Of a DNA stretch of 64,000 nucleotides, positions 1 to 53,935 are shown piece after piece (positions within the stretch are counted from its first letter, which is position 1; each line of letters starts with the position of its first letter). The DNA comes from Salvelinus alpinus. Its lineage: Eukaryota > Chordata > Actinopteri > Salmoniformes > Salmonidae. The stretch is taken from contig NC_092094.1 in assembly GCF_045679555.1 (NCBI RefSeq), forward strand, positions 16,487,112 to 16,551,111, written 5' to 3'. A program made the position numbers and the translations under genes. The notes under the pieces are model-generated. The model did no database searches, was not told the origin of the DNA, and saw only the letters and a program-made list of their open reading frames with translations.

Positions 1-3000
1 TTAGTAGGGGTCAGTGGTTGGTGAGTAGTTAGTAGTGGTCAGTGGTTGGTGAGTAGTTAGTAGGGGTCAGTGGTTGGTGAGTAGTTAGTAGTGGTCAGTG
101 GTTGGTGAGTAGTTAGTAGGGGTCAGTGGTTGGTGAGTAGTTAGTAGGGGTCAGTGGTTGGTAAGTAGTTAGTAGTGGTCAGTGGTTGGTGAGTAGTTAG
201 TAGGGGTCAGTGGTTGGTGAGTAGATAGTAGGGGTCAGTGGTTGGTGAGTAGATAGTAGGGGTCAGTGGTTGGTGAGTAGTTAGTAGGGGTCAGTGGTTG
301 GTGAGTAGATAGTAGGGGTCAGTGGTTGGTGAGTAGTTAGTAGGGGTCAGTGGTTGGTGAGTAGATAGTAGGGGTCAGTGGTTGGTGAGTAGTTAGTAGG
401 GGTCAGTGGTTGGTGAGTAGATAGTAGGGGTCAGTGGTTGGTGAGTAGTTAGTAGGGGTCAGTGGTTGGTGAGTAGATAGTAGGGGTCAGTGGTTGGTGA
501 GTAGTTAGTAGGGGTCAGTGGTTGGTGAGTAGTTAGTAGGGGTCAGTGGTTGGTGAGTAGTTAGTAGGGGTCAGTGGTCGGTGAGTAGTTAGTAGGGGTC
601 AGTGGTTGGTGAGTAGTTAGTAGGGGTCAGTCGTTGGTGAGTAGATAGTAGGGGTCAGTGGTTGGTGAGTAGATAGTAGGGGTCAGTGGTTGGTGAGTAG
701 TTAGTAGGGGTCAGTGGTTGGTGAGTAGTTAGTAGGGGTCAGTGGTTGGTGAGTAGTTAGTAGGGGTCAGTGGTTGGTGAGTAGATAGTAGGGGTCAGTG
801 GTCGGTGAGTAGTTAGTAGTGGTCAGTGGTTGGTGAGTAGTTAGTAGTGGTCAGTGGTTGGTGAGTAGTTAGTAGTGGTCAGTGGTTGGTGAGTAGATAG
901 TAGGGGTCAGTGGTTGGTGAGTAGATAGTAGGGGTCAGTGGTTGGTGAGTAGATAGTAGTGGTCAGTGGTTGGTGAGTAGTTAGTAGGGGTCAGTGGTTG
1001 GTGAGTAGATAGTAGGGGTCAGTGGTTGGTGAGTAGATAGTAGGGGTCAGTGGTTGGTGAGTAGTTAGTAGGGGTCAGTGGTTGGTGAGTAGTTAGTAGG
1101 GGTCAGTGGTTGGTGAGTAGATAGTAGGGGTCAGTGGTTGGTGAGTAGTTAGTAGTGGTCAGTGGTTGGTGAGTAGTTAGTAGTGGTCAGTGGTTGGTGA
1201 GTAGTTAGTAGTGGTCAGTGGTTGGTGAGTAGATAGTAGTGGTCAGTGGTTGGTGAGTAGTTAGTAGTGGTCAGTGGTTGGTGAGTAGTTAGTAGTGGTC
1301 AGTGGTTGGTGAGTAGTTAGTAGTGGTCAGTGGTTGGTGAGTAGTTAGTAGTGGTCAGTGGTTGGTGAGTAGTTAGTAGTGGTCAGTGGTTGGTGAGTAG
1401 ATAGTAGTGGTCAGTGGTTGGTGAGTAGTTAGTAGTGGTCAGTGGTTGGTGAGTAGTTAGTAGTGGTCAGTGGTTGGTGAGTAGTTAGTAGTGGTCAGTG
1501 GTTGGTGAGTAGTTAGTAGTGGTCAGTGGTTGGTGAGTAGTTAGTAGTGGTCAGTGGTTGGTGAGTAGATAGTAGTGGTCAGTGGTTGGTGAGTAGTTAG
1601 TAGTGGTCAGTGGTTGGTGAGTAGTTAGTAGTGGTCAGTGGTTGGTGAGTAGTTAGTAGTGGTCAGTGGTTGGTGAGTAGTTAGTAGTGGTCAGTGGTTG
1701 GTGAGTAGATAGTAGGGGTCAGTGGTTGGTGAGTAGTTAGTAGTGGTCAGTGGTTGGTGAGTAGTTAGTAGTGGTTGGTGAGTAGTTAGTAGGGGTCAGT
1801 GATTGGTGAGTAGTTAGTAGTGGTCAGTGGTTGGTGAGTAGTTAGTAGGCGTCAGTGGTTGGTGAGTAGTTAGTAGTGGTCAGTGGTTGGTGAGTAGTTA
1901 GTAGTCGTCAGTGGTTGGTGAGTAGCTAGTAGTCGTCAGTGGTTGGTGAGTAGTTAGTAGTCGTCAGTGGTTGGTGAGTAGTTAGTAGTGGTCAGTGGTT
2001 GGTAAGTAGTTAGTAGTGGTCAGTGGTTGGTGAGTAGTTAGTAGGGGTCAGTGACTGGTGAGGAGTTAGTAGTGGTCAGTGGTCGGTGAGTAGTTAGTAG
2101 TGGCCAGTGAGTAGTTAGTAGTGGTCAGTGGTTGGTGAGTAGTTAGTAGGGGTCAGTGGTTGGTGAGTAGTTAGTAGTGGTTGTGGTTGCTAGTTGGTGA
2201 GTAGTTAGTAGTGGCCAGTGGTTGGTGAGTAGTTAGTAGGGGTCAGTGGTTGGTAAGTAGTTAGTAGTGGTCAGTGGTTCGTGAGTAGTTAGTAGTTAGT
2301 AGGGGTCAGTGGTTGGTGAGTAGTTAGTAGTGGTCAGTGGTTGGTGAGTAGTTAGTAGTGGTCAGTGACTGGTGAGGAGTTAGTAGTGGTCAGTGAGTAG
2401 TTAGTAGGGGCCAGTGGTTGGTGAGTAGTTAGTAGGGGTCAGTGGTTGGTGAGTAGTTAGTAGTAGTCAGTGGTTGGTGAGTAGTTAGTAGTGGTTGTGG
2501 TTGCTAGTTGGTGAGTAGTTAGTAGTGGTCAGTGGTTGGTGAGTAGTTAGTAGTGGTTGTGGTTGCTAGTTGGTGAGTAGTTAGTAGTGGCCAGTGGTTG
2601 GTGAGTAGTTAGTAGTGGTCAGTGGTTGGTAAGTAGTTAGTAGTGGTCAGTGGTTGGTGAGTAGTTAGTAGGGGTCAGTGGTTGGTGAGTAGTTAGTAGT
2701 GGTCAGTGACTGGTGAGGAGTTAGTAGTGGTCAGTGGTCGGTGAGTAGTTAGTAGTGGCCAGTGGTTGGTGAGTAGTTAGTAGGGGTCAGTGGTTGGTGA
2801 GTAGTTAGTAGTGGTCAGTGGTTGGTGAGTAGTTAGTAGTGGTTGTGGTTGCTAGTTGGTGAGTAGTTAGTAGTGGCCAGTGGTTGGTGAGTAGTTAGTA
2901 GTGGTCAGTGGTTGGTAAGTAGTTAGTAGTGGTCAGTGGTTGGTGAGTAGTTAGTAGTTAGTAGGGGTCAGTGGTTGGTGAGTAGGTAGTAGGGGTCAGT

Positions 3001-3425
3001 GGTTGGTGAGTAGTTAGTAGTGGTCAGTTGTTGGTGAGTAGTTAGTAGTGGTCAGTGTTTGTTGAGTAGTTAGTAGTGGTCAGTGTTTGTTGAGTAGTTA
3101 GTAGTGGTCAGTGGTTGCTGGTTGGTGAGTAGTTAGTAGGGGTCAGTGGTTGCTGGTTGGTGAGTAGTTAGTAGGGGTCAGTGGTTGCTGTTTGGTGAGT
3201 AGTTAGTAGTGGTCAGTGAGTAGTTAGTAGTGGTCAGTGGTTGGTGAGTAGTTAGTAGTGGTCAGTGTTTGTTGAGTAGTTAGTAGTGGTCAGTGTTTGT
3301 TGAGTAGTTAGTAGTGGTCAGTGGTTGCTGGTTGGTGAGTAGTTAGTAGTGGTTAGTGGTTGCTGGTTGGTGAGTAGTTAGTAGTGGTCAGTGGTTGCTG
3401 GTTAGTGAGTAGTTAGTAGTGGTTA
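1..3425. repeat. 28-bp minisatellite, about 120 copies
   Basis: A head-to-tail array with a 28-base period. Each unit begins TTAGTAGGGGTCAG and ends GGTTGGTGAGTAG. Units differ mainly at a GGGG/GTGG site and at TTAG/ATAG. Copies are near identical to about 1750, then become mixed with deletions and chimeric units (for example GTTGCTAGTTGG variants near 2180, 2500 and 2850, and GTGTTTGTTGAG near 3050-3300). The array starts before the window, so its true length is unknown. It abuts the last visible exon of the minus-strand laminin gene and therefore lies in its next intron or its 3' flank. The plus strand is G-rich. Confidence 0.97.
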
Positions 3426-3771
3426 GTAAGTGGACACACACAACGTACCTCCTTTGTGTTAGTAGCGCTACCCAGAGCTGTGATAACATCCACTTTGGCC
3501 TGCTCCGCCTGCTCTCTGTTCATCTCTGTCTTCTTCTTCAGAGCCTCAATCTCCTCCAGCATCTCTGGAGGTCTAGTGGAGTTAAAGTTAGTCTATGTGT
3601 TATTCAGTTTCTTCTCAATCTGGTGTCATGACAGATATATACAGTTATGAGAAAGAACATACTTTCTTCTGAGAGCTGAAGAGTCTGAATATCTGATGGA
3701 TGTTTAATACAAATACGTACAAGCAGGAATGGGTAGAGAGAGAGGGAAAGTTGGAGAAAGAGTGTGTGACA

Positions 3772-3784
3772 GTGAGAGAAAGAA

Positions 3785-3849
<65 letters not shown>

Positions 3850-3867
3850 GAGAGAGAGAAAGAGAGA
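3772..3867. repeat. (GA)n microsatellite
   Basis: An almost pure GA dinucleotide run with a few AAAG interruptions. It sits directly 3' (on the minus strand) of the donor of laminin exon 4008-3873, so the intron begins with a polypyrimidine CT run on the sense strand. Confidence 0.95.
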
Positions 3868-4396
3868 ATTACCTCTTTAATCATCTCGTGCGCCATGTCA
3901 TTGCTTTCCTTAGCCTTCTCCAGGTCTTGCTCAACCTCGTCCTGTGATTTCTCAGTGGCCACTATGGCATTCTTGATATCCGTAACGTCAATACCCCTGG
4001 TTCTGTCCCTAATACATTGACAACCATGGTACAAATATGGTAATTTAGCAGAAAGGTTTATAGAAAGTGACAGTCACTCATATTCAGTATATGTGGTACT
4101 GGCTAACCTGATATCCAGAGCATTCTCCAGTAGGTCCTGGGCTGTCTTGGCTTGGTCCTCCAGTTTTTTCAGATCCTCCTTGAACTCAGTGAAGTTGGCC
4201 AGCATGCCCCGGATGTTCTGGATCATGGAGTGGATGTCATCTAGAGAGCCCGGCAGCTGGATAGCCAGAACACCCTTGACCAACCTTTCTATGTCCTCTG
4301 GTGCCACCATCTCATCTGTAAGCAGATACGTCGGATCAACAAGTAAATTCAACAAATCAAGTTTTTTTAAGGGATCCTTGCAAGGAAATGTCAAGC

Positions 4397-5790
4397 TTAT
4401 TTCCAGCTAGCCTCCACACTGACCTGTGAGAGTCTAATTTCCAGCTAGCCTCCACACTGACCTGTGAGAGTCTTATTTCCAGCTAGCCTCCACATTGACC
4501 TGTGAGAGTCTTATTTCCAGCTAGCCTCCACATTGGCCTGTGAGGTAGTCTTATTTCCGGCTAGCCTCCACACTGACCTGTGAGGTAGTCTTATTTCCAG
4601 CTAGCCTCCACACTGACCTGTGAGGTAGTCTTATTTCCAGCTAGCCTCCACACTGACCTGTGAGGTAGTCTTATTTCCTGCTAGCCTCCACACTGACCTG
4701 TGAGGTAGTCTTATTTCCTGCTAGCCTCCACACTGACCTGTGAGGTAGTGTTATTTCCAGCTAGCCTCCACACTGACCTGTGAGGTAGTGTTATTTCCAG
4801 CTAGCCTCCACACTGACCTGTGAGGTAGGGTTATTTCCAGCTAGCCTCCACACTGACCTGTGAGGTAGTGTTATTTCCTGCTAGCCTCCACACTGACCTG
4901 TGAGGTAGGGTTATTTCCAGCTAGCCTCCACACTGACCTGTGAGGTAGGGTTATTTCCAGCTAGCCTCCACACTGACCTGTGAGGTAGAGTTATTTCCAG
5001 CTAGCCTCCACACTGACCTGTGAGGTAGTGTTATTTCCAGCTAGCCTCCACACTGACCTGTGAGGTAGGGTTATTTCCAGCTAGCCTCCACACTGACCTG
5101 TGAGGTAGGGTTATTTCCAGCTAGCCTCCACACTGACCTGTGAGAGTCTTATTTCCGGCTAGCCCCAACACTGACCTGTGAGGTAGTCTTATTTCCAGCT
5201 AGCCTCCACACTGACCTGTGAGGTAGTCTTATTTCCAGCTAGCCTCCACACTGACCTGTGAGGTAGTCTTATTTCCAGCTAGCCTCCACACTGACCTGTG
5301 AGGTAGTCTTATTTCCAGCTAGCCTCCACACTGACCTGTGAGGTAGTCTTATTTCCTGCTAGCCTCCACACTGACTTGTGAGGTAGTCTTATTTCCAGCT
5401 AGCCTCCACACTTACCTGTGAGGTAGTCTTATTTCCAGCTAGCCTCCACACTGACCTGTGAGGTAGGGTTATTTCCAGCTAGCCTCCACACTGACCTGTG
5501 AGGTAGTGTTATTTCCAGCTAGCCTCCACACTGACCTGTGAGGTAGGGTTATTTCCAGCTAGACTCCACACTGACCTGTGAGGTAGTGTTATTTCCAGCT
5601 AGCCTCCACACTGACCTGTGAGGTAGTGTTATTTCCAGCTAGCCTCCCCACTGACCTGTGAGGTAGGGTTATTTCCAGCTAGCCTCCACACTGACCTGTG
5701 AGGTAGGGTTATTTCCAGCTAGCCTCCACACTAACCTGTGATGTAGTGTTATTTCCAGCTAGCCTCCACACTGACCTGTGAGGTAGTCTT
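4397..5790 (-). repeat. 40-bp minisatellite built from a laminin splice donor
   Basis: About 34 to 35 tandem copies with an exact 40-base period. On the minus (laminin sense) strand each unit contains GACTACCTCACAG followed by GTCAGTGTGGAGGC. This matches the last 13 bases of laminin exon 5920-5776 and its intron start. The genuine exon end is the first unit, at 5776. Each further unit therefore repeats the same exon tail and 5' splice site in the sense direction. Units vary at a few positions (AGTC/AGTG/AGGG, CCAG/CCTG), and some near the left edge lack two bases of the GGTAG segment. Confidence 0.97.
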
Positions 5791-6273
5791 TGACCCTCTT
5801 AATGAGGTCCTTGGTGTCTTTCTTCTCCCTGTCAAACTTGTCCTTGCTGTCAGTGATCTTCTTCTGTATCTCCTCCAATTGGTGATGGGTGTCCTTGGTC
5901 TTCTGTTTGGCCTCATCGAACTGAACAGGATAGATTGAGACTTGTGTCATACATGTATTAAATAGTCAAACATGTATACATGTATCAAAGTCAAAAATAA
6001 ATATATCTGTAGAGTTTTTGGGGGGAATATGCCTTGATCTTGGAGTCCTGTAGTTTGTGGAGCAAGTCTACAATGCCATTGTCTAGTTGATCTGCTGTTT
6101 TTGTGGTGTTGTGGCTCACAGGGACACTGCCCTTGCATGTAGGACCCCCACATTCTCTCTGTCCCAGGATGTCACGGCACAGCGCACCCCCACACTCTGA
6201 CTTGGAGAATTCCTCATCCACAGATCTAAGAGCCTCACAGTGTAAGATGGTTTAAAGGTCCAATGTAAGATGG

Positions 6274-6729
6274 TTTAAAGGTCCAATATAGACGTGTTTA
6301 ATTATTATCACAAAATCAAATCATTTCTGGGTAACATTTAAGTACATTTCTGTGATTGTTTTCAATTAAAATTGTCAAAAATAAACGAAAATAGCTTAGC
6401 AAAGAGCAATTTATCAAGCAAGAATTTGACCAGGACTGTCTGGGAGTGGTCTGAGTGGGGAGGGGAAAACTGAAAATGATGTTATTGGCAGAGAGGTTTG
6501 GAACTCTGTTTCTTATTGGTATATTAACTCATTTACCGCCTGGTGATGTCACCAGGCAGGTCAAAACTCTACCCCACCAAAACAGGCAGAAATTTCAGGC
6601 GGTCTTTTCAAACAGTTCTTACACTAAAAGGGAATGATCATTATTTTCACAATTTCACAGTATTATTCCAACCTCATAGTGTGGAAATATATTTGTAAAT
6701 CACATTTTTGACTGCACTGGGCCTTTAAA
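6274..6729. mobile_element. MITE-like repeat, copy A
   Basis: Lies in a laminin intron. It is bounded by TTTAAAGGTCCAAT on the left and TGGGCCTTTAAAT on the right, an inverted terminal pair. Its interior (for example GGCAGAGAGGTTTGGAACTC and a CTGGGAGTGGTCTGAGTGGG stretch) matches, in reverse complement, the segment at 43440-43778. It has no coding capacity and is non-autonomous. The left flank contains a short duplication of the terminal motif (6250-6280). Confidence 0.75.
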
Positions 6730-7172
6730 TCAGAATATTTCCATGGCTGACTATGAACATAGGGTTGCCGACAATTGAAACAGACTGACATTCACGCTAA
6801 CACATCACTCTTTTGATGCATGCAGTGCAAGCACTACTATAAGGAACACTCACATTTTTGTTGAGTTTGGCCACACTCAGAGCCTTGACATTCTTCTCCA
6901 GCGCCTCCATGTCTCCCAAGCGGCTATAGCTGGACAGATGGTCGTTGACCCCCTGCTGTGTGTCCATGGAGTTCTCCAGGGCCCTATTGGCCTCCTTTAC
7001 ATCAGCCATGAAGTCTGCATGCTGCTTCCTGATTTCCTCCAGGGCCTCTGGATCAGCATCAAAATTAAAGTCCCCACTTTTGGGTTCTGATTTCTTGACT
7101 TATGAAATATACTTATTCCTTTCACTGAGGGAGAGAGGGTAATTATAACGTTTACATTATGTCAAGATATGT

Positions 7173-8133
7173 TGTTAGCCGTCAGGGATTGATGGGGGGT
7201 CACTTTGGGGTCATGATAGGGGCTGCACCAAATTATTGATGTATTATAATAATTGGTTATGCTTATGTTGTATTAAAAGGGCTATAAGAACCCGCCACTA
7301 CATTTATAGGATCCTGACTACATATTAGCAATATATATATACATTATAAGGTTTAATATTGTTCCACAGTTCTTTTCTAGTCTCTGCTTCTTATAAAAAA
7401 CGGTCTGAGAGATATGTGAGTTATAGCAGTCAAAACAGGGTGTCTGTGAGAAAGCACCTCAAGGCTAAAAGAGATTCATAGACACAGAACCCTGCAGGGG
7501 AGTGAAAGAGATAAGAGACTAGTCAGACATGACACTATAAAGCAACTTGGGGAGTGAACATCTACTGCTGAGCCCTTAGATAACACTGGAACTATTGTCT
7601 CTCCTGCAGGTTTGTATAACTGTATATGCATGGGCTTGGTCTCATGAGTAGAAGGTGTTGACGTAGGCAGTTACATCACTAGGGGTTGACTGCTGTCTGC
7701 AATTGCATTAATAATGGTTTTTGATTGATTTATTTAAAGATATTGTCTGAATGCTGATTTCACCAATAAGTAAATGATTGACAAGGAACAAGGAACCTAC
7801 CCCAACAGGATACTATGGGAGGAGGAAAGACACCGTCTGGTACGAGTCAACATGACAGCCGTGAGTTGGGGAGGAGTGAGCATTTTGGGGCAGAGGTCAG
7901 GTCAGATGACGTGAGGAAGAACAGGTATCACTAAGGTTCTGTCTAGCAACAGAGATGCATTGGCTGTTCAGATGTGTAGGAGGAGACTCAGCATAGGAGA
8001 AAGGGTTAAATATCAGTGCTTGTGTGAATATGTATTTTGTCAGTTCAGCTGTTCGATCCTTAGGGTAGAATAAACTTGGTTTAAGCTTTCATAGTGTCCG
8101 TCGAGTTCTTACTCTGATAATTAGAACCTAACA
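7173..8133 (+). mobile_element. Candidate solo LTR
   Basis: A 961-base segment begins TGTTAG and ends CTAACA, the TG...CA inverted ends typical of LTRs. It contains a polyadenylation signal (AATAAA near 8068) about 60 bases before the end, as in an R-U5 layout. No internal retroelement genes adjoin it, so it would be a solo LTR inside a laminin intron. I see no clear target-site duplication, so the boundaries and class (gypsy-like or retroviral) are uncertain. Confidence 0.5.
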
Positions 8134-10594
8134 CCACCAATCAGATACTCACACTTTACATTTTATCAAGTTGCTCTACATACACAGTGAAATTACAGTG
8201 AATTCCAAATGATAAAAAAACAAACTATATGGCCATATGTACCTTGCAGTTTCACTGTATCTACTGTTGGCTCCTCGCTGATTTTGTCCTTTAAGTTATC
8301 CAATGGTATCTTGAACTTCGGATGTTGTCGATCTCAGTGTTCAGAATAGACGTTAGGTCCATGATGATGCCGTTGGGATCTATGGTGTCTTTGAGCTTCC
8401 TGTGAGGAAGGACAAAGAGCAAAGGAAAATGTTTACAGCTCCAAGATAACTGTCAAAGTATAGTATAAATCACTTCAACTCACGGTTTAAGAGTATGTTG
8501 AATAATAATATTCAGAAATTAAAAAAGATGAGAGACTGTTATTTACATATGAGATTCTGACACAGAACTTCTCCACATCCTTCACCCGAGGTAGAAATCT
8601 CCCAGTCAGGTTCACCAGATAGTCCAACTTGGAGTGCATCTCCAGCATGCGTTCCCACCGACGACTGTATCCTGGCTCCAGTTGCTCACAGTTGCAAGGC
8701 ATAAAGGTACGCATCCTCTGGGCGGCACGGTGGACGTCGGTGACGTTGTCCGCCCACAGGACGGCACAGGGTTGGCACGGGGTGCAGGCAGGGAAGACTT
8801 GGTCATACCCAGGGGCACACTCGTCACAGAAGATGCCCTTCACACCAATGCGCACAGGCACTCACCCGTCAATGGGTCGCAGGCAGGCCGGTCGGTACCC
8901 TCCATTTGCAGTCACAGGCTAGGGAGACAGGATAAGGAGGGAAGGGAAATCTATACACAACAGCAATGTCTCTCTTTGTGGTGCTAAGAATTAAAAGACC
9001 CATCAATGAATCACTTTTGGCCACAACTTACTGACACAGCGCAGGCCAGGGTTCCCAAAGTGATTCTCCCCACACTCATCACACTGTCTGCTTCCAAACT
9101 CAGTACGACACTGGCACTGACCAGACACCTGAAGAGTCAAATAAGAAGGCTTACCAATATAGTATGGGGAAATAAACCTCAGTTTACCATGCTTTGACAT
9201 AGAATAGTATAGAATACTGTGCTAGGGAGTATAGAGGCCTTGCCTTGTCACAATGGTAATTGAGGGAGTTGGTAGGGTCACATTTGCACAATTGGCACCC
9301 AGACTCTCCCTTAATGTTCCAGAAGCTGTCGGCACACTCGTCACACAGTGTGACCACCGCGCCCGCCCGACACGGGCCCACGACACTGCCCCGTGAGCGG
9401 TTCACAGAGACACGGGCTGTCCAGAGGGCACTGGGGAGGTGTGGTGCATCTAGGGGTCAAAACATTGACAGCCCCCCCCACTTTATTGACCCTCATAGAT
9501 TTGAACTTCTTTCTAGTCCTGGGCCAGATGATGATTTGTATACTGTGTGCCCCTGCTATACCTTTGCAGTCCTGGGCCAGTCCGTCTCCATAGTAGTCAG
9601 GCTTACAGCTCTGACAGTGGGGTCCCTGGGTGTTGTGGAGGCAACGCAGGCACTCTCCTGTCACGCGGTCACTGTCAGTAGGGTCGATGTTGTTGTTACA
9701 GAGACACTCTTCGCAGCCGCCGCCCGGCGTGGTCAGGTCGCCATAGAAACCAGCGGAGCAGGCATCACAGCGGAGGCCTGAATGGAAATTGGGCAGGGAG
9801 AGAAATTAGGATCAACGGTCAGTAGTGAGCAGTCAAACTAGCAACTAACTTCAACTAATGTTGAAAAGAGTGCACATGCACCGACATAAACACACAAAAA
9901 CACATTTGTGTCCAGCCAGGCAGTCATAGGTCAGGCTTCCAGACTCTGCGTCATTGTTGCAGGTGCTAGCAAAGAACCGTCCACTGGATTGAGTGTCAGG
10001 ACACAGACAAGGCTCACAGAGCTCCCTGGAGACTGGGTCACAAAAGTACCCCACCACACACCTGGGGCAACCAAATACACAACATTGAAACATTCTGACT
10101 GTCACTGTGAACACTGGCAGATCTGTGACTGTAGAAAGAATGATAGTCAGAAAAGTTGGCACACACTTATGGAACCAAGCTATAGATATGGGTTGATTCT
10201 AATAGGGAAATGTGAATAACAGCTTTTAAATGAATAAATAAATGAATGAAACCTCACCTCTGACATTTGCCTCTGGTGGAATGCTCCCTGCAGTCCAGAC
10301 AGGCTCCAGTGTCCTGGTCACACAGTTCAGCGAGGCCATTGCAATCACAGGGCTGACAGGGGAAAGCCGTAGAACCCCGGCAGGCAGCAGTCACAGCGCC
10401 GTCCGCCTACCTCCATACAACACGGACACTGACCCCTGACCTGGTCACACAGCTCCGCAAGGGTCACACTCACAGGCTGGAGGAGGGGTGGACGGATTTG
10501 GTCACAATCAGAACACAATAACAACTTCATATTTTCAACAACATTGTGGGTATTTACAGTCACCTCAACAAGTAATATTTTTTTCTCTCAAAAA

Positions 10595-19933: not shown

Positions 19934-21568
19934 TCACTGGCATATTTTCTTGTGTTGCTTTAAATTCCAAGCACGATTGAAACTCTTCCCACAATTAGAG
20001 CAGAGGTAAGGTTTCTCTCCAGTGTGTAGTCGGATGTGTGCTCTTAAATGTCCTGGCAGAAAGAAACTCTTGTCACAGTAAGTACATGTGTGCCGTCGTT
20101 CCCCCTTGTGAAATAGCAGGTGCATTCTGAGTCCCTGAGCGTGATGGTATCCCTTCCCACAATCAGGGCATTTATGTGGTTTCTCTCCTGTGTGAATGCG
20201 CATGTGAAGCCGTAATGTCTTTGCGATGTTGAATGTCTTGCCACACTCCTTACAAGAGAATGACCTCTCTCCTGTGTGGGTTAACATATGAACCTTCAAG
20301 GAGCTGGCCTGCGTAAATGTTTTACTGCACTCTTTGCAAGAGAACGGCGTCTCCCCTGTGTGAGTACGGCGGTGTATTCTCAAACCTCCGATCTGTTTGA
20401 ATTTTTTACCACACTCCTCACAAGTGTGGGACTTAACATTGGAATGAACTTGTTTATGTCTGGCCAGTTGGGTGAGGTTAAGAAAGCTTTTTCCACACTC
20501 CTCACAGAGGCATGATTTTTCTGGTTTGGGCCTGTGTGTGTACTGGTGCCTCTGAAGACCATCCAGAAGGCCAAAGCTCTTCCCACACTCCTCACAAGAA
20601 TGCGGTTTGATACCAGTATGGTTTGACTGATGCTCTTGCAATATGGACAGTGTGGAGAAGCTTCGCCCACATTCAGGGCAGGGGAAGGCTGTTCTGTGTA
20701 CTTGCTTCTGATGCTTTCGCAGACGGTACTCTGAGACAAAACTTTTCCCACATTCAGAGCAAGGCAATGCTTTTTCCTCTCCATGCGCTGCTGACATATG
20801 CATTTTCAAGTTGTAGAGGAGTGTGTAGCTCTTCCCACACTGAGAGCAGATATGAGGACCCTCGTGGACTTTCATATGTTCTTTAAGGAACTTCAGCACA
20901 CTGTAGCTCTTTCCACAGTCGTGGCAGGTGTGCAGCTTCTCCCCTTGGTGATTTAACTGATGATTCTTTAAGCTCTCTGGTCGTGTAAAACTCTTCCCGC
21001 AGGCGGTGCAAACATGTGGTCTTTCCCCGCTATGTGTTGTCATGTGCCTTTTTAAGCGAGATGCTGAACAGAATTTCCTATTGCACTCTGTGCAACCGTG
21101 ATTCTTCTCACTGTGCGTTGTCAGGTGCTTCCTTAGGCACGGTGCAGATCGGAAGCTCTTTTCGCATTTCGTGCAACAGTATGTTCTGTCAGCATCATGC
21201 ATTGTTAGGTGCTGCTTTAAGAGTGATGCATAAGGGAAGCTCTTCTCACAAGTTATGCAATAGTGTAGGGTTTTATCAGTGTGAATAATCTGGTGCTTTT
21301 TCAAATGTAAGGCGGTACGGAAGCTCTTGTCACACTGGGTACAAGAGAAAGACTCTGAATCAGACTCAGAATCCTCCTGGGATGAATCCGAACTGTCTGC
21401 TTGGTTTGCTGGCTGATCACTTAGATTCTCTTCTTCCAGTGTGTTCATCTGTTGAGTGTACTCAATGCGCACCTCATCTATTTCAATCTTTATTTCAGGT
21501 GAATCAATGTTATTTGCCTTGTTCTCTGGATCATTGCGGCTTTGGTGTTCATTAATCAAGTTCTCCAT
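19934..21568 (-). CDS. C2H2 zinc-finger protein, 17 fingers
   Basis: An uninterrupted 544-residue frame. Residues 1 to about 72 are acidic and Ser-rich (SDSSQEDSESDSES) with no KRAB, BTB or SCAN domain visible. Seventeen consecutive C2H2 fingers follow, from SCTQCDKSF to YLCSNCGKSF. The last ends HKKICQ, so its final ligand is Cys (C2HC). Finger linkers are TGEKP-like in the C-terminal part and more variable in the first half. Such proteins are nuclear and usually bind DNA; the target cannot be read from sequence. The coding exon starts after a good acceptor (CACTTTCCCCAG, boundary at 21608), so a 5' noncoding exon lies upstream, possibly ending at a donor near 21840. Teleost genomes carry many such genes. 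No orthologue is assigned. Confidence 0.93.
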   Translation of the reverse strand: MENLINEHQSRNDPENKANNIDSPEIKIEIDEVRIEYTQQMNTLEEENLSDQPANQADSSDSSQEDSESDSESFSCTQCDKSFRTALHLKKHQIIHTDKTLHYCITCEKSFPYASLLKQHLTMHDADRTYCCTKCEKSFRSAPCLRKHLTTHSEKNHGCTECNRKFCSASRLKRHMTTHSGERPHVCTACGKSFTRPESLKNHQLNHQGEKLHTCHDCGKSYSVLKFLKEHMKVHEGPHICSQCGKSYTLLYNLKMHMSAAHGEEKALPCSECGKSFVSEYRLRKHQKQVHRTAFPCPECGRSFSTLSILQEHQSNHTGIKPHSCEECGKSFGLLDGLQRHQYTHRPKPEKSCLCEECGKSFLNLTQLARHKQVHSNVKSHTCEECGKKFKQIGGLRIHRRTHTGETPFSCKECSKTFTQASSLKVHMLTHTGERSFSCKECGKTFNIAKTLRLHMRIHTGEKPHKCPDCGKGYHHAQGLRMHLLFHKGERRHTCTYCDKSFFLPGHLRAHIRLHTGEKPYLCSNCGKSFNRAWNLKQHKKICQ

Positions 21569-22009
21569 CTTGATAGACGGAGGGAAGGGGTGCAGTCTAA
21601 TTTTCTGTCTGGGGAAAGTGACAGAAAATAATGTGTGAAGAGAATATAATATAAAAAGGCATGGCTAATGCAAACAAGACCTCACTTGACACAGACGTTC
21701 AATGTTTCATGGTGTTGTGGATGTGGACGACCACAGATTTCAAAGCAAAAAGTGTACGAACTAAACCAAACGTGAACGTTTGCTGACTAGCTAGCCAACC
21801 AGCCAGCTAGTTGGCTAGTTTGATTGCCTGCAGTGCTCATACCGAATGGAAACACAAGATTGTTGGTTTAGCTATATGACTCAACCAGATTGCACAACAC
21901 GAAAACACACAAAACTACTGCTAACACCTAGAAAAGTCAAAATACCTGTAGCTATGTTCGTTTTTGGACAAAAACAACGGCGCAAAAATCAGCGTCTCGT
22001 CAGCAACAC

Positions 22010-24558: not shown

Positions 24559-27500
24559 CCTTCTGACCTTCTGGTACCTACCCCAACTGTCAGCCCAGCA
24601 TCTGACCTTCTGGTACCTACCCCAACTGTCAACCTAGTGTCGGACCTTCTGGTACCTACCCCAACTGCCAGACCAGTATCTGACCTTCTGGTACCTACCC
24701 CAACTGTCAACCTAGTGTCGGACCTTCTGGTACCTACCCCAACTGTCAACCTAGTGTCGGACCTTCTGGTACCTACCCCAGCTGTCAACCTAGTATCTGA
24801 CCTTCTGGTACCTACCCCAACTGTCAGCCAAGTATCTGACCTTCTGGTACCTACCCCAACTGCCAGACCAGTATCTGACCTTCTGGTACCTACCCCAACT
24901 GCCAGACCAGTATCTGACCTTCTGGTACCTACCCCAACTGTCAACCTAGTGTCGGACCTTCTGGTACCTACCACAACTGCCAGACCAGTATCTGACCTTC
25001 TGGTACCTACCCCAACTGTCAGCCCAGCATCTGACCTTCTGGTACCTACCCCAACTGTCAGCCCAGTATCTGACCTTCTGGTACCTACCCCAACTGCCAG
25101 ACCAGTATCTGACCTTCTGGTACCTACCCCAACTGTCAACCTAGTGTCGGACCTTCTGGTACCTACCCCAGCTGTCAACCTAGTATCTGACCTTCTGGTA
25201 CCTACCCCAGCTGTCAACCTAGCATCTGACCTTCTGGTACCTACCCCAACTGTCAGCCCAGCATCTGACCTTCTGGTACCTACCCCAACTGTCAGCCCAG
25301 TATCTGACCTTCTGGTACCTACCCCAACTGCCAGACCAGTATCTGACCTTCTGGTACCTACCCCAACTGTCAACCTAGTGTCGGACCTTCTGGTACCTAC
25401 CCCAACTGCCAGACCAGTATCTGACCTTCTGGTACCTACCCCAGCTGTCAACCTAGCATCTGACCTTCTGGTACCTACCCCAACTGTCAACCTAGTGTCG
25501 GACCTTCTGGTACCTACCCCAACTGTCAGCCCAGCATCTGACCTTCTGGTACCTACCCCAACTGTCAACCTAGTGTCGGACCTTCTGGTACCTACCCCAA
25601 CTGTCAGCCCAGTATCTGACCTTCTGGTACCTACCCCAACTGTCAACCTAGTGTCGGACCTTCTGGTACCTACCCCAACTGTCAACCTAGTGTCGGACCT
25701 TCTGGTACCTACCCCAACTGTCAACCTAGTGTCGGACCTTCTGGTACCTACCCCAACTGTAAACCTAGTGTCGGACCTTCTGATACCTACCCCAACTGTC
25801 AGCCTAGTGTCGGACCTTCTGGTACCTACCCCAACTGTCAGCCCAGCATCTGACCTTCTGGTACCTACCCCAACTGTCAACCTAGTGTCGGACCTTCTGG
25901 TACCTACCCCAACTGTCAACCTAGTGTCGGACCTTCTGGTACCTACCCCAGCTGTCAGCCCAGTATCTGACCTTCTGGTACCTACCCCAACTGTCAACCT
26001 AGAGTCGGACCTTCTGGTACCTACCCCAACTGTCAGCCCAGCATCTGACCTTCTGGTACCTACCCCAACTGTCAGCCCAGCATCTGACCTTCTGGTACCT
26101 ACCCCAACTGTCAGCCCAGCATCTGACCTTCTGGTACCTACCCCAACTGCCAGACCAGCATCTGACCTTCTGGTACCTACCCCAACTGTCAACCTAGTGT
26201 CGGACCTTCTGGTACCTACCCCAACTGTCAACCTAGTGTCGGACCTTCTGGTACCTACCCCAACTGTCAGCCCAGCATCTGACCTTCTGGTACCTACCCC
26301 AACTGTCAGCCCAGCATCTGACCTTCTGGACCTACCCCAACTGTCAGCCCAGCATCTGACCTTCTGGTACCTACCCCTACTGTCAGCCCAGCATCTGACC
26401 TTCTGGTACCTACCCCAACTGCCAGACCAGTATCTGACCTTCTGGTACCTACCCCAACTGTCAACCTAGTGTCGGACCTTCTGGTACCTACCCCAACTGC
26501 CAGACCAGTATCTGACCTTCTGGTACCTACCCCAACTGTCAACCCAGTATCTGACCTTCTGGTACCTACCCCAACTGTCAACCTAGTGTCGGACCTTCTG
26601 GTACCTACCCCAACTGTCAGCCCAGTATCTGACCTTCTGGTACCTACCCCAACTGTCAGCCCAGTATCTGACCTTCTGGTACCTACCCCAACTGTCAACC
26701 TAGTGTCGGACCTTCTGGTACCTACCCCAACTGTCAACCTAGTGTCGGACCTTCTGGTACCTACCCCAACTGTCAACCTAGTGTCGGACCTTCTGGTACC
26801 TACCCCAACTGTCAGCCCAGCATCTGACCTTCTGGTACCTACCCCAACTGTCAGCCCAGCATCTGACCTTCTGGACCTACCCCAACTGTCAGCCCAGCAT
26901 CTGACCTTCTGGTACCTACCCCTACTGTCAGCCCAGCATCTGACCTTCTGGTACCTACCCCAACTGCCAGACCAGTATCTGACCTTCTGGTACCTACCCC
27001 AACTGTCAACCTAGTGTCGGACCTTCTGGTACCTACCCCAACTGCCAGACCAGTATCTGACCTTCTGGTACCTACCCCAACTGTCAACCCAGTATCTGAC
27101 CTTCTGGTACCTACCCCAACTGTCAACCTAGTGTCGGACCTTCTGGTACCTACCCCAACTGTCAGCCCAGTATCTGACCTTCTGGTACCTACCCCAACTG
27201 TCAGCCCAGTATCTGACCTTCTGGTACCTACCCCAACTGTCAACCTAGTGTCGGACCTTCTGGTACCTACCCCAACTGTCAACCCAGTATCTGACCTTCT
27301 GGTACCTACCCCAACTGTCAACCTAGTGTCAGACCTTCTGGTACCTACCCCAACTGTCAACCTAGTATCTGACCTTCTGGTACCTACCCCAACTGTCAGC
27401 CCAGTATCTGACCTTCTGGTACCTACCCCAACTGTCAACCTAGTGTCGGACCTTCTGGTACCTACCCCAACTGCCAGACCAGTATCTGACCTTCTGGTAC

Positions 27501-29300
27501 CTACCCCAACTGCCAGACCAGTATCTGACCTTCTGGAACCCACCCCAACTGTCAACCTAGTGTCGGACCTTCTGGTACCTACCCCAACTGCCAGACCAGT
27601 ATCTGACCTTCTGGTACCTACCCCAACTGTCAACCCAGTATCTGACCTTCTGGTACCTACCCCAACTGTCAACCTAGTGTCGGACCTTCTGGTACCTACC
27701 CCAACTGTCAGCCCAGTATCTGACCTTCTGGTACCTACCCCAACTGTCAGCCCAGTATCTGACCTTCTGGTACCTACCCCAACTGTCAACCTAGTGTCGG
27801 ACCTTCTGGTACCTACCCCAACTGTCAACCCAGTATCTGACCTTCTGGTACCTACCCCAACTGTCAACCTAGTGTCAGACCTTCTGGTACCTACCCCAAC
27901 TGTCAACCTAGTATCTGACCTTCTGGTACCTACCCCAACTGTCAGCCCAGTATCTGACCTTCTGGTACCTACCCCAACTGTCAACCTAGTGTCGGACCTT
28001 CTGGTACCTACCCCAACTGCCAGACCAGTATCTGACCTTCTGGTACCTACCCCAACTGCCAGACCAGTATCTGACCTTCTGGTACCTACCCCAACTGTCA
28101 ACCCAGTATCTGACCTTCTGGTACCTACCCCAACTGTCAACCCAGTATCTGACCTTCTGGTACCTACCCCAACTGTCAACCTAGTGTCGGACCTTCTGGT
28201 ACCTACCCCAACTGTCAGCCCAGTATCTGACCTTCTGGTACCTACCCCAACTGTCAGCCCAGTATCTGACCTTCTGGTACCTACCCCAACTGTCAACCTA
28301 GTGTCGGACCTTCTGGTACCTACCCCAACTGTCAACCCAGTATCTGACCTTCTGGTACCTACCCCAACTGTCAACCTAGTGTCAGACCTTCTGGTACCTA
28401 CCCCAACTGTCAACCTAGTATCTGACCTTCTGGTACCTACCCCAACTGTCAGCCCAGTATCTGACCTTCTGGTACCTACCCCAACTGTCAACCTAGTGTC
28501 GGACCTTCTGGTACCTACCCCAACTGTCAACCTAGTGTCGTACCTTCTGGTACCTACCCCAACTGTCAACCTAGTATCTGACCTTCTGGTACCTACCCCA
28601 ACTGTCAGCCCAGCATCTGACCTTCTGGTACCTACCCCAACTGTCAGCCCAGCATCTGACCTTCTGGTACCTACCCCAACTGCCAGACCAGTATCTGACC
28701 TTCTGGTACCTACCCCAACTGCCAGACCAGTATCTGACCTTCTGGTACCTACCCCAACTGCCAGACCAGTATCTGACCTTCTGGTACCTACCCCAACTGC
28801 CAGACCAGTATCTGACCTTCTGGTACCTACCCCAACTGCCAGACCAGTATCTGACCTTCTGGTACCTACCCAAACTGTCAACCTAGTATCTGACCTTCTG
28901 GTACCTACCCCAACTGTCAACCCAGTATCTGACCTTCTGGTACCTACCCCAACTGTCAACCTAGTATCTGACCTTCTGATACCTACCCCAACTGTCAGCC
29001 CAGTATCTGACCTTCTGGTACCTACCCCAACTGTCAACCCAGTATCTGACCTTCTGGTACCTACCCCAACTGTCAACCTAGTGTCAGACCTTCTGGTACC
29101 TACCCCAACTGTCAACCTAGTGTCAGACCTTCTGGTACCTACCCCAACTGTCAACCTAGTATCTGACCTTCTGGTACCTACCCCAACTGTCAACCTAGTA
29201 TCTGACCTTCTGGTACCTACCCCAACTGTCAACCTAGTATCTGACCTTCTGGTACCTACCCCAACTGTCAACCTAGTGTCGGACCTTCTGATACCTGCCC
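24559..29300. repeat. 39-bp minisatellite with higher-order structure, about 121 copies
   Basis: Consensus unit: GACCTTCTGGTACCTACCCC followed by AACTGTCAACCTAGTGTCG. Because 39 is a multiple of 3 and the unit lacks stops, very long frames exist on both strands: plus SDLLVPTPTVNLV and minus GVGTRRSDTRLTV, with individual frames up to 838 codons. Unit variants (VNLV, VSPV, VSPA, ARPV, VNPV) recur in a 14-unit order. Two copies carry a 1-base deletion in GGTACC (at 26326 and 26871), exactly 545 bases apart. Each intact unit has one GGTACC palindrome. No recognisable protein domain flanks it; a polyadenylation-like AATAAA lies at about 30111. Treated as non-coding. Confidence 0.93.
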
Positions 29301-30990
29301 CGCCTGCCTCTCCGGTTCCTTCCATCCGAGGGCCTTGTCCACCTGTAGCCAGGCCTGCCAATGCCATATCAGGAAGGTGTGTGTCGGAGAGATCTAGTTC
29401 TTACAAATACGACCAGCAGCTACCAGAGCTAATGGACGTCAGACAGGTCATATTACCGTCTGAGCCCTTGATCTTCAGAAGCACCGAGACGTTGTTCCTG
29501 TGTAGCCCACCCAGCTAATGTAGCCGGAGATGACGGATGTCACCGCCTGCCCAGATCTACATCCAGCCATACAGGTAGCACAGGCCACTCTGCTATACTG
29601 ACCATTAGGAGAGCAGTGCAGGTGGGCGAGAGGTGCCCCTCTCACAACCTCTTGGTCCCATTGGCAGAGTGGACTCTTATCAGACAGTGGCACATGCCCG
29701 CCTCCCGTGCCAAGGCTGAGCAGGAATGGGAGAATAGCCGACGAGAGTGCAGGAAGGAGGGATAGTCCATTCACCTGGTTGAATTCTTCACCAGTCAACC
29801 CCAAACCACAGAGGCAGGTGACAGATTTGATCCAGCTCCTACTGATCCAGGTCGTTGTGCAGGAGCAGCAGCTACTGTTGGAAATACTGTTGGATCAGAT
29901 TCTTCCCATGAGACCCAACAGGAGCCACAAGTACTCTTCTCCCTGGGGTGGGTAGCTTCTCTGAGGGTCTTCTCTTCCTGAAGATGGTCAACTTTAACCC
30001 TTGAGGGAGAACGCCACCCTGGAGTATCCAGAGTATCCATTAATCCATTTGATATTCTAGTTAGGCCAATGTTAACTTCCACTCTGCCTGTGCCAATGAA
30101 TGCTTTTCTAATAAAGCTTTCTTACAGTTAAACATGTGGTGTCAGTTTATGTTAGAATAGAACAATATAGAACCCATTTAACAATAATAGAACACATTTG
30201 TCTTCATTGGATTTGTTGAATCAAATGTTTTTGCATGTGACAGGTTGATGCTGAATATATTACAACAGAAAGTAACATTTAAATCACACTCAGAAGCTCC
30301 TCTACTTCATTTATGACTAGACTATGAGGTACAGTAAGTAGCATGTGCCAGATCTTTGTACTGACCAAAGAGAGATATTGAGAAGGAGTGAGATCTGACT
30401 GGACTAAGAAAAGATCCAATTCAAATTCTTATTACCCTGGAGGAGGCACATCTGACACACCATAGTCTCACATTTCCCCACAACAATTTGTACTACAGTT
30501 TTTGAAATTAGCTCCGTTAGGACCTATCCCTGCTGTAACAACACATTATATCCCACAGGGGGCACTAAAGGTATGGACAGGAGGTTGAGGTTGGAAAGCA
30601 GGGAGGAGCAGACTGCAGTGCACACATAGTATCAGAACACTTTGTACCTTGAACACCATCTGAACTTCCTCACATCCTCAATTATTTAAATTGAAGAAAA
30701 TCTAATACCCGCTCTGCCATGGTCATCTTCAGGCTGATATGGTTTCAAATGACAATTACAGTAAAGGTAACAGGAGGAAATGATGCTCTGACGAATGAAG
30801 GACTTCAATTGGTCGTAAGGACAGTACGTTAATAGATGATGATCCCTTGGGTTTTCACAGTCCATCATGATAAATACTTTTTTTTGGCAACTTACGTATT
30901 GTTGTCTGAGGTCCACTATGAAACATATTTGCTCCACCAAAGCTCTGAGCTTATGAACATTGTCGAGGTATCGCTCAAGTTTATAACCTC
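29301..30990. other. Flank of the 39-bp array, no gene recognised
   Basis: The plus-strand repeat frame runs on for about 70 unrelated residues to a stop at 29516-29518, and AATAAA follows at about 30111. Neither the tail nor the minus-strand frames (for example 29804-29475) resemble a known protein. 30130-30990 shows nothing recognisable. Confidence 0.45.
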
Positions 30991-53177: not shown

Positions 53178-53935
53178 ATTCAGTGGCCAATTTATTAGGT
53201 ACACTCATCTAGTACCAGGTCGGACCCTCATTTGCCTCGAGAACAGCCTGAATTTTAAAGGGCGTGGAAACATTGCTCAATTGATATTAAGGGACCTAAA
53301 GTGTGCCAGGAAAGCATTCCCCACACCATTACACCACCAGCCTGTACTGTTGAAAAAAGGCAGGATGGGGCCATAGACTCATGCTGCTTACGCCAAAGCC
53401 TGACTCTACCATCAGCATGACGCCACACGAACCGGGATTCGTCGGACCAGGCAGTGTTTTTCCACTCCTCAGCATGACGCAACACGAACCGGGATTCGTC
53501 GGACTAGGCAGTGTTTTTCCACTCCTCAGCATGACACAACACGAACCAGGATTCGTCGGACCAGGCAGCGTTTTCCACTACTCAGCATGACGCAACACGA
53601 ACCGGGATTCGTCGGACCAGGCAGTGTTTTTCCACTCCTCAGCATGACGCCACACGAACCGGGATTCGTCGGACCAGGCAGTGTTTTTCCACTCCTCAAT
53701 TGTCCAGTATTGGTGATGGCGTTCCCACTGGAACCAATTCTTCTTGTTTTTAGCTGATAAGAGTGGAACCCGGTGTGGTCGTCTGCTGTAAAAGCCCATC
53801 TGTGACAAGGACCAACGAGTTGTGAGATGCTGTTCTGCACACCATTGTTGTACTGCGTCGTTATTTACCCGTTTGTGGCCCGCCTTTTAGCTTGCAAGAT
53901 TCTTGCCATTCTCCTTCGACCTCATGGAAAAATAT
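53178..53935 (-). mobile_element. Tc1-like fragment with an internal 57-bp tandem expansion
   Basis: Same family as 18610-19452 (terminal CAGTGGCCAATTTATTAGGT at 53181). The minus-strand transposase contains five tandem copies of a 57-base unit (CATGA marks at 53416, 53473, 53530, 53586 and 53643). Each encodes about EEWKNTAWSDESRFVLRHA, so the first catalytic Asp motif (WSDES) is repeated. One unit is a base short and breaks the frame. The C-terminal half of the gene is missing. Confidence 0.88.

Follow-up and report, generated by a model that had tools for sequence, protein, structure and literature searches.

How does a single exon-intron junction of a laminin gene come to stand 35 times in a row, and did its multiplication help to destroy the gene? 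We analyzed a window of 64,000 nucleotides (the whole stretch of DNA examined, C9:16487112-16551111) from a fish genome, salmonid to judge from its nearest matches, in which a LAMB4 intron on the minus strand, 5775-4316, is almost entirely filled by a 40-bp minisatellite lying between two exons. Our answer, which we hold with considerable though not complete confidence, is that one LAMB4 exon-intron junction, present once in an apparently intact gene elsewhere in the genome, was multiplied 35-fold where the gene is broken, likely through slipped-strand duplication between two AAG triplets, and that the result is likely a neutral passenger.

A minisatellite made of LAMB4 exon-intron junctions

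Tandem Repeats Finder (TRF) reported a minisatellite on the minus strand at 4396-5790, with a period of 40, 35.1 copies and 95% matches. The array had been recognized in a preliminary description of this DNA, which placed its start at 4397, not at 4396. Each unit reproduces the final 12 bases of LAMB4 exon E10 (exon numbering is our own) together with its donor, and most of the unit, 28 of 40 bases, is intron. The repetition of the donor agrees with the preliminary description; its figure of 13 exon bases does not: a unit has 12 exon bases and, in addition, the shared AAG, which in AAG-type units extends the agreement with the exon edge to 15 bases.

Splitting the array at AG|GT gave 35 junctions, of which number 1 is the exon's own donor (intron starting at 5775), as expected from the earlier statement that the true exon end is itself the first unit. 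Of the 34 junction-to-junction intervals, 30 measure 40 bp and 4 measure 38 bp. GT is kept at 34/35 junctions, AG|GT at 33/35 and the exact CAG|GTCAGT at 30/35. AG|GT was lost in unit 11, which has no AG, and in unit 32 (4532-4537, minus strand), the sole copy without GT; the five departures from CAG|GTCAGT are GTTAGT in unit 2, GTAAGT in unit 10, CAA|GTCAGT in unit 11, GCCAAT in unit 32 and GTCAAT in unit 33. Variant cells across units were somewhat fewer at donor positions (6/306) than elsewhere (46/1054), raw counts to which we gave no weight; the donors may be under weak constraint.

Mean identity over all pairs of array units was 94%, and the locus has the makeup of a minisatellite, with head-to-tail units of tens of bp that carry unit variants; its copy number comes from one assembly. 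A 23-base unit probe with at most 3 mismatches matched 35 times in the window and 0 times in each of 100 shuffles, so the array is not due to chance, and unit probes matched in the window only inside 4397-5790.

The host intron (4316-5775, minus strand) measures 1460 nt; the 34 added units account for 1352 nt and leave 108 nt, and its counterpart on contig C15, described below, measures 95 nt. Upstream of it lies E10 (5776-5920, minus strand), which is in frame, ends in ...RVKDYLT G| and has 85% DNA identity to C15; downstream lies E11 (4108-4315, minus strand), which is in frame and reads G|AT ... DEMVAPEDIE. Residues 38-191 of the joined E9-E12 protein matched positions 1-154 of Pfam PF23219 (LAMB1-4 helical domain), 154 residues on 154 profile positions with no net gap, and the match spans the E10/E11 join. 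The top protein match among 86 was Salmo salar LAMB4, with 72% identity in the scored region (7,982 candidates scored), and the exon-edge sequence VKDYLTDEMVAPEDIE is identical in that protein. The PF23219 match over E10/E11 and this identity mark the exon edge as an old part of the laminin coding region. Three salmonid protein models (P0002, P0003 and P0016) continue past E9 without E10.

Origin and growth of the array

We searched the genome (2.37 Gb, 928 contigs; a single query, only the best candidates scored and very common words skipped) with 231 bases comprising the exon and nearly two units. There were 17 matches, 16 at the C9 exon and array and 1 at C15:39977164-39977345, the latter with 85% identity over query bases 1-182, which is the exon plus 27 intron bases. 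By alignment, the C15 locus is a second LAMB4 copy, apparently intact: salmon LAMB4 residues 5-1692 align there exon by exon, with gaps, and coverage with at least 60% identity extends to 1,494/1,789 residues. Five gaps exceed 5 residues, all of them between residues 328 and 976, and the 799 codons aligned to the C9 copy contain no stop in C15 and one in C9. The window and C15 also have upstream blocks in common, which may be repeats and carry no weight in our argument.

In the C15 counterpart intron the unit is present once, and TRF reported no tandem array there. The junction reads exon ...GTCAAAG-ACTACCTCACAG|GTCAGT, followed by 22 further unit bases ending in AAG and then by unique intron; at the edges, CAAAG is followed by ACTACC in the exon and ATAAG by CTTTT in the intron. 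Because the C15 intron has the unit once, bounded by an AAG in the exon and an AAG in the intron, we conclude that one exon-intron junction was amplified. This bears out the earlier claim that the array grew from a laminin exon-intron boundary, and the single unit that was to be sought in an unamplified relative was found in a second gene copy of the same genome.

The array starts and ends at the two AAGs also seen in C15. The exon-side AAG (5788-5790, minus strand) forms the left edge of the amplified segment and the intron-side AAG (4396-4398, minus strand) its right edge, followed by unique intron beginning CTTGAC. The unit length equals the C15 stretch including both AAGs less one AAG (43 - 3 = 40 bp). 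Unit length and common AAGs therefore suggest that the first duplication arose through slippage at a 3-bp microhomology, one that is itself older than the array. Because about 5% of random junctions have at least 3 matching bases, the microhomology taken alone is modest evidence, and it is from these edges that we infer the mechanism. Haber and Louis, and Taylor and Breden, are said to have had minisatellites born by slippage between non-contiguous short repeats. The locus offers a clean birth record of a minisatellite, with the unamplified junction kept in a sister copy and the presumed slippage triplets at both edges.

Later growth left its own traces. The order of unit types (AACxC, AAGAC, 38-bp) occurs twice, in units 1-16 and in units 17-35. 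The first super-block (5138-5775, minus strand) runs from AACxC-type to AAGAC-type units and has a last unit of 38 bp; the second (4396-5137, minus strand) has the same type order and ends with three 38-bp units and a last partial unit. The type order recurs, and similarity between units has a second rise at offsets 16-19. The array therefore likely expanded later by copying some 16-18 units in one block, and the two similar super-blocks suggest that many units were duplicated at once. Growth after the first duplication probably proceeded via slippage or unequal exchange, with homogenization. Here and in C15 alike the exon edge belongs to the AAGAC type, whereas the neighboring units 1-8 of the array belong to the AAC type. 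When all 35 array copies were compared with C15, the same six of 28 intron positions differed (one copy being further changed at one of them); since all copies have them, these six differences arose before the array's ancestor or on the C15 side.

Amplification in place has one rival, namely that a pre-existing satellite overran the exon edge. The preliminary description had noted that this would be revealed by the unit turning up elsewhere in the genome unconnected to the laminin exon. In the one genome search all matches fell either at the C9 exon and array (16) or at the C15 exon-intron junction (1), with no third locus, and the window probes likewise found no unit outside 4397-5790. The C15 copy has the unit once, in the same place and with unique flanks, and the exon edge it would have had to overrun is conserved coding sequence. 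Having seen nothing in its favor, we rejected capture by an older satellite on the genome query and the single C15 copy, and consider the chance that it happened very small.

Decay of the gene copy and possible effects on splicing

The C9 gene copy is a LAMB4 pseudogene remnant (3449-10476, minus strand) of 13 exons, E1-E13, corresponding to residues ~854-1692 of salmon LAMB4. For residues 1 to ~853 we found no exons in the window, save EGF-repeat cross-matches. Relative to C15 there are six frame-breaking indels in 4/13 exons: E1 has two gaps (11 and 2 nt), E4 has an insertion of 7 nt, E6 has two 1-nt gaps and E7 has a 4-nt gap. A fifth exon, E13, carries a TAG stop (3595) where salmon LAMB4 has Glu. 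E10 and E11, which flank the array, contain no frame break or stop. A frameshift-aware alignment gave 8 frame breaks, from which we left out the breaks reported for E3, E8 and the beginning of E7 as exon-join effects or in-frame gaps (1 and 8 nt in E3, 9 nt in E8); E1 was counted with two gaps where that alignment showed one. The residue coverage of the window against salmon LAMB4 was left aside, since it mixes introns and cross-matching EGF repeats. E14, outside the window and outside the lesion count, matches in two frames.

Assembly noise as the source of the frame breaks was rejected on the reasoning that frames of 576 aa (which we take to be a zinc-finger protein) and 997 aa (presumably reverse-transcriptase-like) are open in the same window, and that C15, in the same assembly, has no stop in its 799 codons. 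The donors of E4 (9243) and E9 (6032) are GC rather than GT in both the C9 and C15 copies. We therefore rejected them as inactivating lesions, and since both copies have GC, GC-AG introns seem ancestral at E4 and E9.

Between the C9 and C15 copies dS was 0.221 and dN 0.099 (97.5 and 175.5 differences, 799 codons), with an omega of 0.36 across E1-E8 and 0.65 across E9-E13. We placed 155 amino-acid differences on salmon LAMB4 and polarized them with three esociform proteins: 53 fell on the C9 copy and 15 on C15, 15 were ambiguous and 72 unpolarizable. The implied omega was ~0.69 for the C9 copy and ~0.20 for C15, and by this rough dating constraint was lost for ~0.61 (0.39-0.90) of the branch. 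On average, pairs of array units were ~0.17 as divergent from each other as they are from C15 (bootstrap median 0.11, interval 0-0.42), a rough value that is biased downward by homogenization; concerted evolution can hide an older array. We favor the order in which loss of constraint preceded the present array; the intervals 0.39-0.90 and 0-0.42 touch.

The preliminary description had suggested that the array may have contributed to loss of the gene. That suggestion fared poorly: residues 1 to ~853 are missing, the six frame-breaking indels and the stop all lie in exons other than those flanking the array, and divergence suggests that the present array arose after constraint had been lost, though the intervals touch. 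Because the gene copy is broken, we take the array to be a passenger, which probably spread once the gene copy was no longer functional rather than causing its loss. A striking lesion can thus be a late passenger, a warning for studies of gene loss.

What the units would do in a transcript can be read from their phase. Past the true donor the sequence continues GGT CAG TGT GGA GGC TAG, or GQCGG*, and use of none of the 34 later donors is stop-free, since each would extend the exon through the first unit, where the stop lies; the earlier statement that only the first donor keeps the frame was correct. Because every later donor predicts a premature stop, the copies, if transcribed, could only be decoys or be removed; that is, they could distract from the true donor, or they could splice to each other and vanish. 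On an approximate weight matrix the true donor scored 8.5 and most added donors equaled it; unit 10 (GTAAGT, 5410-5415, minus strand) scored above it, at 12.6, and units 11, 32 and 33 scored lower. With 35 near-identical donors in a row, the array is a natural construct suited to measuring 5' splice-site choice and re-splicing.

If the units acted as decoys, the added donors would have captured U1 snRNP, reduced splicing accuracy and helped to inactivate the gene. It is in keeping with this that 32/35 donors (the true one included) score at least as high as the true donor on the approximate matrix, a level reached by only ~1% of the 371 GTs in 12000-6300, the gene's upstream donors included, and that a stop follows use of each later donor. 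We nevertheless find the account improbable: several lesions lie away from the array, the 5' half of the gene is missing and, on a crude dating, the array's ancestor came after loss of constraint. Nor need duplicated splice sites be harmful, since in human CBS a 68-bp duplication of the intron 7/exon 8 junction is described as still yielding normal mRNA, one of the two sites being strongly favored (PMC2630376). Alternatively, the array could erase itself, AG|GT being both acceptor and donor, so that splicing from one unit to a later one would rebuild the same junction and a late-donor transcript could be re-spliced to correct mRNA. On the same approximate matrix the unit AGs score 4.7-7.7 as acceptors (-5.6 in unit 11, which has no AG), resembling the 7.1 of the true next acceptor. 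With 70 nt taken as an approximate lower bound, 561/595 donor-acceptor pairs enclose enough sequence, donor 2 being the only one after which too little (40 nt) would remain to be spliced a second time. Recursive splicing is described as employing juxtaposed acceptor and donor (PMC8605326), and duplicated AGGT segments as able to act as introns (PMC4974935). Against these points, each unit has three more AGs, a weak pyrimidine tract and a branch site that is only hypothetical, the gene copy is broken, and published results are said by their authors to agree with suppression of regenerated splice sites by the exon junction complex (PMC8605326). We judge such re-splicing a very improbable explanation of the locus. 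That the run of 35 AG|GT would be a self-erasing intron, letting the array grow unseen in mRNA except for the 40-nt residue left via donor 2, strikes us as unlikely too; were it true, splice-junction minisatellites would be a route for silent inflation of small fish introns. The neutral passenger remains our preferred reading.

Related systems and neighboring repeats

The closest known case, as far as the sources cited describe it, is the human CBS 31-bp VNTR at exon 13-intron 13, c.1444_1467+7(16_21), which has 16-21 copies in people (PMC2630376; PMC1395315). Its unit, like that of LAMB4, spans an exon end and an intron start and so, by its coordinates, repeats a 5' splice site; the LAMB4 units include exon end and donor, with GT in 34/35 and the exact motif in 30/35. 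Exon makes up most of the CBS unit (24/31, going by its nomenclature), whereas the LAMB4 unit is mostly intron, and the CBS repeat is polymorphic in a working gene, whereas the LAMB4 array lies in a pseudogene with its single-copy seed kept in a sister gene copy. Segmentally duplicated human genes are also described as carrying tandem repeats where exon and intron meet, some of these repeats forming novel introns (PMC2812944). These resemble the LAMB4 array in being tandem, in duplicated genes and at exon-intron boundaries; nearly all of the loci described there have RNA support, whereas the LAMB4 array is known from DNA alone.

Introns can be gained by tandem duplication of an AGGT segment, and multiple tandem AGGT duplicates are cited for fission yeasts (PMC4974935). 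The LAMB4 unit likewise carries AG|GT, so that two copies supply both splice sites, but the array multiplies an existing junction rather than an exon interior, and at 40 nt a single unit likely falls short of the length an intron needs. Ratchet points of recursive splicing have the same juxtaposed AG|GT (PMC8605326), which we found at 33/35 LAMB4 junctions. Those described in Drosophila lie within long introns (two in ~50 kb in kuz) and need a cryptic exon (PMC8605326), whereas the 35 LAMB4 junctions, at most putative ratchet points, are spaced 38-40 nt apart. Minisatellites are described near alternative exons in worms (PMC4039745). Among the literature matches listed, no title or abstract start named a salmonid LAMB4 array. 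The array belongs with the CBS-type exon-intron VNTRs and is notable for its number of junctions and its surviving seed.

A second intron of the C9 LAMB4 copy is inflated as well. Between E13 and E14 there are ~8.6 kb of a 28-bp unit, compared with a 112-nt intron in C15; this minisatellite covers window positions 1-3413 and positions 4801-10000 of the adjoining locus L013, and starts ~35 bases past the E13 donor. Its sense strand holds 233 TACTAAC motifs, which we take to be branch-point-like, and the C15 intron has a seed-like stretch shortly past the donor. That two small introns of one dead gene turned into minisatellites would fit relaxed constraint.

Downstream, on the same strand, L014 at ~900-3356 contains laminin N-terminal exons with 48-52% identity to LAMB4, likely those of a neighboring laminin beta gene. 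An open multi-zinc-finger frame lies at window positions 19934-21664, and we found no zinc-finger match within the 35 kb examined at C15. Its best match is a Coregonus suidteri protein model (P0087) in which zinc fingers are fused with part of a laminin N terminus that shares 91% identity with salmon LAMB4, and is likely a gene-model merger of neighbors. The window holds two further tandem repeats: a 39-bp (13-codon) minisatellite at 24562-29301, with ~122 copies and long open frames on both strands, and a 57-bp repeat of 5 copies at 53412-53698, which overlaps a transposase frame that is presumably Tc1-like.
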